From Oligoflexia bacterium (lineage in GTDB: Bacteria > Bdellovibrionota_G > JANQFH01), in assembly GCA_028277945.1 (NCBI GenBank), contig JANQFH010000012.1, positions 1-64,000 on the forward strand: a stretch of DNA of 64,000 bases, written 5' to 3'. The translations under genes were made by a program, and so were the position numbers. The notes under the pieces were generated by a model, which was not told the origin of the DNA, ran no database searches, and saw only the letters and a program-made list of their open reading frames with translations. Shown one piece after another: positions 19,515 to 42,343 of the stretch (the first letter of the stretch is position 1; every line of letters begins with the position of its first letter).

Positions 19515-19551
19515 TATCGGACCCACAAACACTTTGGAAGAGTCTTTAGGT

Positions 19552-19740
19552 TTGGAGAGGCAACTGGGTTGTTTTGCAAGCGAGATGCGGAGCCAGCCGA
19601 TTTGTTCGGGAGCGGAGGCGAGGGAGGCCGCGATACCGACCGTAGGGAGGTTAAGCGGAGGGCCCCCGCCGGAGCGACCGCTAACAAATCGAGCTGGTGG
19701 AGCGCACGAGCGTAGCAAAACAACCCAGTTGCCTCTCCAA
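19552..19740. repeat. 189-base inverted-repeat element with perfect 26-base arms (R1)
   Basis: The left arm 19552-19577 (TTGGAGAGGCAACTGGGTTG and six more bases) is the exact reverse complement of 19715-19740. Inside, a second pair occurs: GATTTGTT near 19599-19606 with AACAAATC at 19683-19690. The interior is GC-rich. It encodes no protein and could fold into a long stem. Confidence 0.9.
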
Positions 19741-19814
19741 GCCAAAAACTTCTCAAAGTTATTCATCCGGACAGTACGCTGCATCCATGCAGTCCTGTAA
19801 CCGACAACTCTGCA

Positions 19815-20024
19815 GGCGTGTCCAACAGGCCTGAGGCGAAATAAAGCGCAGGAGGCCCTTAGTAAAGCGACCGAGCGATTTATTCGCGAGGGAGCGCAGA
19901 GCTCGAGAGCATCGCAAAGGCATAAAGAACTATAATCGATGCGAGCAGCTACCTCAAAGCCTTTGCGGGCTCTCGAAGATAATCGTCCGACGAGCCATTC
20001 GCCGAAGGCTTGGTTGGACACGCC
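19815..20024. repeat. 210-base nested inverted-repeat element (R2)
   Basis: GGCGTGTCCAAC (19815-19826) is perfectly complementary to GTTGGACACGCC (20013-20024), with imperfect pairing continuing inward to GGCGAA/TTCGCC. An inner stem pairs TCGAGAGCATCGCAAAGGC (19903-19921) with GCCTTTGCGGGCTCTCGA (19959-19976). The segment 19839-19981 is repeated at 38507-38650, and the right end with its flank CCATATAGAGA recurs at 42342-42352. Confidence 0.88.
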
Positions 20025-38413: not shown

Positions 38414-38483
38414 GACAGTAACAACACTACAAACATTCTGGCAGAGTTAAGGACACTGTTTTTTTCTTTGCACGCCTACGTTA

Positions 38484-38650
38484 GCGCTGGTACGACAACC
38501 TGAGAGAAAATAAAACGCAGGAGGCTCTTAGAAAGCGACCGAGCGATTCACTCGCGAGGGAGCGCAGAGCTCGAGAGCATCGCAAAGGCGTTAAAGGCTA
38601 TAGTCGATATGAGTAATCACCTTAAAGCCTTTGCGGGCTCTCGAAATAAT
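38484..38650. repeat. Third copy of the dispersed repeat (R3), one-sided
   Basis: Bases 38507-38650 match R2 19839-19981 almost throughout, including AGCGACCGAGCGATT, TCGCGAGGGAGCGCAGAGCT and the inner stem (TCGAGAGCATCGCAAAGGC with GCCTTTGCGGGCTCTCGA). Its left end, AGCGCTGG...ACGACAACCTGAGAGAAAA, instead matches the reverse complement of R4a. The matching outer right arm is missing. Confidence 0.85.
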
Positions 38651-38669
38651 GACCAACCGCGGCATCAAC

Positions 38670-42079: not shown

Positions 42080-42111
42080 TCTCGAAAAGAGCTGTTATAC
42101 ACCCTCTACCT

Positions 42112-42200
42112 TAGCGATGGTGCGACAACCTTCGAGAAATGGCTCGCTTCGCTCCGCTCGTCTGCGCTTTATTTTCTCTCAGGTTGTCACACCATCGCTA
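42112..42200. repeat. Inverted-repeat element R4a (28-base arms)
   Basis: 42112-42139 pairs with 42173-42200 at 25 of 28 positions (TAGCGATGGTGYGACAACCT then GAGAAA). The interior on the minus strand reads AATAAAGCGCAG then GAGCGGAGCGAAGCGAGCC, matching the R2/R3 core AATAAARCGCAGGAGGC at its start. Confidence 0.88.
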
Positions 42201-42256
42201 TGACAGTGTGGATGCGACAGCGTTACAGATTCGTTTCATTCGCTGTCACCTCCATA

Positions 42257-42343
42257 GGCTTGTCCAACCCAGCCTTCGGCGAATGGCTCGTCGGCCTCCG
42301 GCCTCCTGCGCTTGATTTCGCCGAAGGCTGGGTTGGACAAGCC
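42257..42343. repeat. Inverted-repeat element R4b (perfect 27-base arms)
   Basis: 42257-42283 (starts GGCTTGTCCAACCCAGCC) is the exact reverse complement of 42317-42343. The 33-base interior on the minus strand reads ATCAAGCGCAGGAGGC...GACGAGCCA, shared with R2 at both its ends. The flank CATATAGAGA-GAC after the right arm is shared with R2. Confidence 0.92.

Follow-up and report, generated by a model that had tools for sequence, protein, structure and literature searches.

Introduction

Insertion sequences of the IS200/IS605 type and their miniature derivatives carry subterminal imperfect hairpins and are not known to have terminal inverted repeats or to duplicate their target. Among smaller repeats, the GTAG REPs are defined by a GTAG tag and a RAYT partner (PMC3733652), and the CGTC REPs are palindromes of REP size with a CGTC tag. 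Rickettsia palindromic elements (RPEs) are short structured repeats of ~150 bp that are present in many copies, lie in frame inside unrelated protein genes and also occur elsewhere (PMC10969869); the RPE sequences of R. conorii have CGTC at one end (PMC3733652). The two loci described here, R2 and R3, lie in a stretch of 64,000 nucleotides (the window), and they share a structured repeat, U, which belongs to an apparently undescribed family: searches of an open-access collection of papers turned up no account of it, and one may exist elsewhere.

Composite structure of R2 and R3

The features of the two loci and of an intact hairpin pair in the same window are as follows.

19815–19857, plus strand: left arm of outer hairpin A (R2), a 12-nt perfect arm plus paired region; many copies elsewhere lack an insert
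19864–19983, plus strand: inner, very probably mobile, unit U (AAAGCG...ATAAT) in the loop of hairpin A; covariance model R1 scores 145.5 bits at 19858–19988; boundaries from 95 copies
19867–19897, plus strand: stem P1 of U, from covariation; with 2 × 2 internal G/A mismatches where some other U copies have full pairs
19903–19976, plus strand: stem P2 of U, from covariation; 8 + 10 pairs with a bulged A
19984–20024, plus strand: right arm of outer hairpin A (R2), from pairing, fold and genome search
38483–38525, plus strand: left arm of hairpin B (R3), the partner arm of which is lost; from the B core consensus
38532–38650, plus strand: second U copy (R3); model R1 scores 136.3 bits at 38526–38655
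42091–42221, minus strand: intact hairpin B without insert, an inverted repeat; core 42129–42183
42257–42343, minus strand: intact, near-perfect hairpin A without insert, with 27-nt perfect arms; core 42273–42327

An earlier interpretation made from the letters of the window (the sequence-only reading) had reported that 19839–19981 recurs at 38507–38650 as part of a single nested-hairpin family. The repeat is real and lies at about these places; its gap-free part spans 19864–19977 and 38532–38645 (87% identity), and in a genome-wide search 38499–38650 matched R2 with an E value of 1e-43. The 12-base perfect outer arms claimed for R2 were confirmed (GGCGTGTCCAAC at 19815–19826 and GTTGGACACGCC at 20013–20024), as was the inner stem of ~18 bp, which in the minimum-energy fold has 18 pairs (8 + 10) around a one-base bulge. 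The fold of the whole is far better than those of shuffled sequences (z = −6.2, 0 of 200). The single family did not survive, A and U being separate repeats that are each found without the other. R2 (19815–20024) is hairpin A with a second element, U (~119 nt, 19864–19983), in its loop; R3 (38483–38650), previously counted as a member of R2's family, is U beside one arm of a sister hairpin, B, and not a degenerate R2. The common unit is U (119–120 nt) and the outer parts differ.

A search of the genome with R2 returned 48 matches, which were full-length, inner-only or outer-only; in the last of these the two arms of A are a few bases apart and U is absent. Both A and B often occur empty in the genome (2.86 Mb). 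Their cores are alike (CCTGAG-N4-AATAAAGCGCAG-loop-CGAGCCAT-N4-CGAAGG), their outer arms differ, and the two usually occur as a pair across a conserved spacer, as in the intact pair at 42091–42343 in the window. Double changes were found in seven of the 16 consensus pairs among 18 intact A/B hairpins and largely reflect the difference between A and B. When the flanks of U in the hairpin A of L012 were joined by eye, they read GCGCAGGAGG followed directly by CCGACGAGCC, identical to the empty loop of L027. The R2/R3 feature is probably made up of two superposed non-autonomous mobile repeats, with U inserted in the loops of A and B; both hairpins are long palindromic repeats and, as far as tested, confined to this genome.

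A different structured insert (~95 nt) was seen in the loop of hairpin B at L012 (~1745–1880) and L024 (1658–1790); since this insert is not U, inserts of more than one kind are found in the loops. Just upstream of R2 (19545–19747 in the window) lies a third long palindromic repeat, with 33-nt arms that are 94% complementary, and pieces of its arms recur in L016 and L024. Integron attC sites were considered for the outer hairpins and rejected: the arms of A fit RYYYAAC/GTTRRRY by chance, those of B fail to, and there was no sign of cassette arrays.

Fold and ends of U

U is 90–130 nt in length and has the unit AAGCGA-P1-GAGCGCGGGG-P2-nnATATAAT. In a two-stem consensus derived from 12 copies of the present genome both sides had changed in 15 of 29 pairs, and in a core model of 13 copies, for which the P2 loops of long copies were shortened by hand, in 19 of 25. 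Alignment A5, the fairest of these tests, consisted of 29 Nitrospirota copies that had no part in building covariance model R2; its cells were paired to 94.2% compared with 80.3% in shuffles and its covariation score was 0.294 compared with 0.081, values in which the structure is somewhat favoured by the fitting of the alignment to the model. Pairing was at most 52% when the partners were slid by 1–3 columns. The two-stem fold is thus backed by covarying pairs, for which the sequence-only reading had proposed to test, and we are very highly confident that U is a repeat family with a conserved fold. The unpaired parts that are conserved are the GAGCGCGGGG linker, the bulged A that adjoins a U–G pair in P2 and the 3′ tail, which is approximately ATATAAT. 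At L048 and L052 in the present genome P1 is replaced by a perfect hairpin of 12–13 bp with a different sequence, the rest of U being unchanged.

The ends of 95 copies (AAGCGA... and ...ATATAAT) form no terminal inverted repeats and their flanks show no apparent target-site duplication (the sole presence/absence pair is too diverged for a base-exact junction); a classical MITE bearing such repeats, as had been suggested, is a poor fit. No target sequence is conserved on the left flank. GTAG occurs neither in the consensus of the U ends nor in the A/B cores, and no conserved CGTC was present in the left and right end logos of the 95 copies. No U scored above the curated threshold of an Rfam model, in agreement with the claim that the element lies outside ordinary annotation.

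Distribution across genomes

Model R1 gave ~19 copies of U in the present genome, a count from model searches; one of the listed hits is a weak reverse-strand shadow of R3 and one a damaged partial copy. Many more copies are present in other genomes, so that the repeat extends well beyond the copies from which the sequence-only reading had started. U was absent from four other genomes of the same phylum and from 380 genomes sampled beyond it, where stricter filters may have passed over weak copies. When 84,980 species genomes were scanned with a pattern, a single locus was found, in a groundwater Nitrospirae assembly (G385) that contains 59 U matches. Within the Nitrospirota 14 of 396 genomes carry U, with per-genome counts that are lower bounds, capped at the ten candidates scored. 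The present genome is the only carrier outside the Nitrospirota among the genomes searched, and most carriers are draft assemblies. Two U patterns had no match in viral contigs and U was not found in phage records; plasmid records yielded one copy, on the Candidatus Manganitrophus plasmid CP114558.1 (11247–11351), where U fills the gap between the stop codon of one cobalamin gene and the start of the next.

Evidence that U moves

The gap between rpoA and rplQ (genes named from their translated sequences) contains U in G516 and is ~12 nt long in G385, a genome of the same family; the two are only 78% identical, so that the insertion point is not base-exact and the difference may reflect a loss as well as a gain. 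U is nested in the loops of A and B and, in Nitrospirota, in those of related hairpins, it forms head-to-tail tandem arrays, and subfamilies in G385 share the same body within different flanks. In the PcrA/UvrD of G385 U is in frame: where the alignment to 1pjr jumps from residue 340 to 347, the query advances from 111 to 150 and is thereby longer by a net ~32 residues. Oligoendopeptidase F likewise contains an in-frame U, in the antisense direction. Pfam confirmed the identity of both proteins and identified five further genes (for a histidine kinase, a MidA-type methyltransferase, an ABC ATPase, a molybdopterin oxidoreductase and a GcvT-like protein) that have U in an open frame, the insertion in these five being placed by translation and not against a solved homologue. 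Because of the presence and absence at rpoA–rplQ, the nesting, the tandem arrays and the in-frame copies in PcrA and oligoendopeptidase F, we hold with high confidence that U is mobile; against this, no mobilizing gene was found adjoining U, and the movement is deduced from sequence comparison. In several Nitrospirota genomes (L131–L135, L144–L147, L150 and L155) the hairpin that surrounds U is itself U-like (CAGCGAGCAAGGCGAGCGAG...GGCGACGCGAGCCCC) and may belong, in diverged form, to a U superfamily.

Positions relative to genes and tRNA genes

The repeats of the window had all been placed at gene 3′ ends, often between convergent genes. The convergent arrangement holds for R2, which lies between a HEAT-repeat gene and lolA, and for the hairpin pair at 42.1–42.3 kb, but not for R3, which is flanked by co-directional AhpC/TSA-DUF899 and SLT genes. 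Across all copies of U, gene 3′ ends make up only a part of the sites, as U also occurs between the genes of operons, against tRNA genes and inside reading frames. With a crude longest-ORF caller, the upstream gene was on the strand of U in 67 cases and on the opposite strand in 20, and between co-directional genes U was sense in 42 cases and antisense in 12. It often runs from a stop codon to a point just short of the following start.

Sixteen copies of U lie within 4 nt of a tRNA gene, and all 16 make this contact through the 3′ end of U. Eight abut the 5′ end and share the strand of the tRNA (Tyr, Trp, Pro, Pro, Ser and Ser in Nitrospirota; Tyr and Glu in the present genome), and eight abut the 3′ end and lie on the opposite strand (Pro, Val, Lys, Ala, Lys and one unclassified tRNA in Nitrospirota; Arg and Arg in the present genome). 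The unclassified case (L152) is at a contig end and was read by eye; two tRNA-Pro copies with common upstream sequence may represent one event. Viewed from the abutting U, the element always lies just 5′ of the acceptor stem. That U should always insert 5′ of a hairpin was rejected as a general rule, being supported by the tRNA sites alone; elsewhere the preference for a hairpin immediately 3′ of U was not significant (p = 0.11). In both phyla a U separates tRNA-Thr(tgt) from tRNA-Tyr(gta) (L052 in the present genome and L080 in G385), a site that is either a common hot spot or an old insertion.

Alternative explanations and proposed mechanism

The covariation, the 42:12 sense bias and the placement of U from stop codon to ribosome-binding site, for example in the Ca. 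Manganitrophus cobalamin operon, would also be expected of a cis-acting structured RNA (an mRNA stabilizer, processing site or regulator) that is selected and only secondarily dispersed. We consider this unlikely: the neighbouring genes are unrelated, copies are found in antisense orientation at the 3′ ends of tRNA genes, in tandem, within reading frames and nested in other repeats, and selection against damaging insertions would give the same bias in gene position.

Less likely again is that U, and A/B with it, are REP-type substrates of resident RAYT/Y1 transposases in the manner of GTAG REPs. The two-hairpin layout, the bulged stem and the head-to-tail copies recall IS200/IS605 ends, as does the lack of inverted repeats and of evident target duplication, and Y1 genes were detected in 12 of 13 carriers tested. 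They are also present in most non-carriers, one carrier (G658) has no detected Y1 gene, the GTAG tag is missing and no U lies within ~1.5 kb of 20 Y1 genes from carrier genomes. The search for a RAYT elsewhere in the genome that the sequence-only reading had proposed did find two Y1 genes (216 aa; L062 1465–2115 and L063 1213–1863, minus). Each lies between inverted repeats of its own that have no relation to U, A or B, and resembles in this respect the TIR-flanked genes described in PMC3733652. The REP side of the earlier proposal was rejected.

Intrinsic terminators or attenuators would explain why strong hairpins lie at the 3′ ends of genes and between convergent ones; this is very improbable for repeats in which P2 is followed by ATATAAT and not by a T run, and for a U that lies inside operons (rpoA–rplQ), just upstream of tRNA genes and inside genes. 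Spread of U as a retroelement-type RNA by a resident reverse transcriptase, which its structured RNA, defined 3′ end at the tRNA junction and tandem copies might suggest, is the least credible explanation and is largely refuted by the lack of an RVT_1 match in 12 of 13 carriers, including the present genome; it would require a diverged enzyme that RVT_1 misses. With no RVT_1 match in these 12 carriers, Y1 genes also in most non-carriers and no U near the 20 Y1 genes searched, both enzyme explanations are without support.

We think it likely that U is a non-autonomous, structure-recognized mobile repeat that behaves like the Rickettsia palindromic elements, which agrees with the earlier view of a palindromic, non-autonomous element. 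An enzyme supplied in trans would recognize the folded single strand of U, presumably by the bulged stem P2, the conserved linker and the AT-rich tail; it would join the 3′ end of U beside targets that are structured or AT-rich, among them hairpin loops, the acceptor ends of tRNAs and the regions of stop codons. The copies that survive would be those that keep transcription and reading frames, and a transcribed U would form a pair of RNA hairpins between cistrons. The conserved fold, the lack of inverted repeats and of evident target duplication and the tRNA polarity lead us to infer action on the folded strand, for which we put the chances at about even. Only tentatively do we suggest that the enzyme joins the 3′ end of U to the foot of a folded strand (a tRNA acceptor stem, a hairpin loop or another U) and that U has passed from one bacterial phylum to another; joining at the foot would account for the one-sided tRNA junctions, the tandem arrays and the self-nesting.

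Comparison with known systems

Like the RPEs, U is a short structured multi-copy repeat that enters protein genes in frame. It differs in its two-stem architecture and the lack of a conserved CGTC, a distinction drawn from published descriptions of RPEs, in its hosts (Nitrospirota and one other phylum) and in its strict 3′-end polarity at tRNA genes. A/B and U resemble GTAG REPs, BIMEs and REPINs in being dispersed extragenic palindromes that lie mostly downstream of genes and possibly act as RNA, and the A–B pairs with their spacer resemble BIMEs; U differs from GTAG REPs in its longer unit with two dissimilar stems, in having no GTAG and in not flanking Y1 genes. With the CGTC REPs it shares the character of a palindromic repeat without a dedicated transposase (PMC3733652), but in U the CGTC tag is not conserved. 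The imperfect hairpins and the lack of terminal inverted repeats and of evident target duplication are as in IS200/IS605, from which U is separated by having no conserved left-flank target sequence and no Y1 gene found adjoining it. Because it has no CGTC tag, no GTAG tag and no RAYT partner, U was placed in no existing family.

U adds tens of unannotated structured insertions per genome in environmentally important bacteria, some of them in frame within PcrA and metabolic enzymes. Small palindromic repeats for which no transposase is known, such as the RPEs and CGTC REPs, are an old unsolved problem, of which U is a cleaner case: it has a fold backed by covariation, fairly sharp ends and a polarity rule at tRNA genes, and it offers occupied and empty sites in related genomes together with a short list of carriers in which to hunt for the enzyme.
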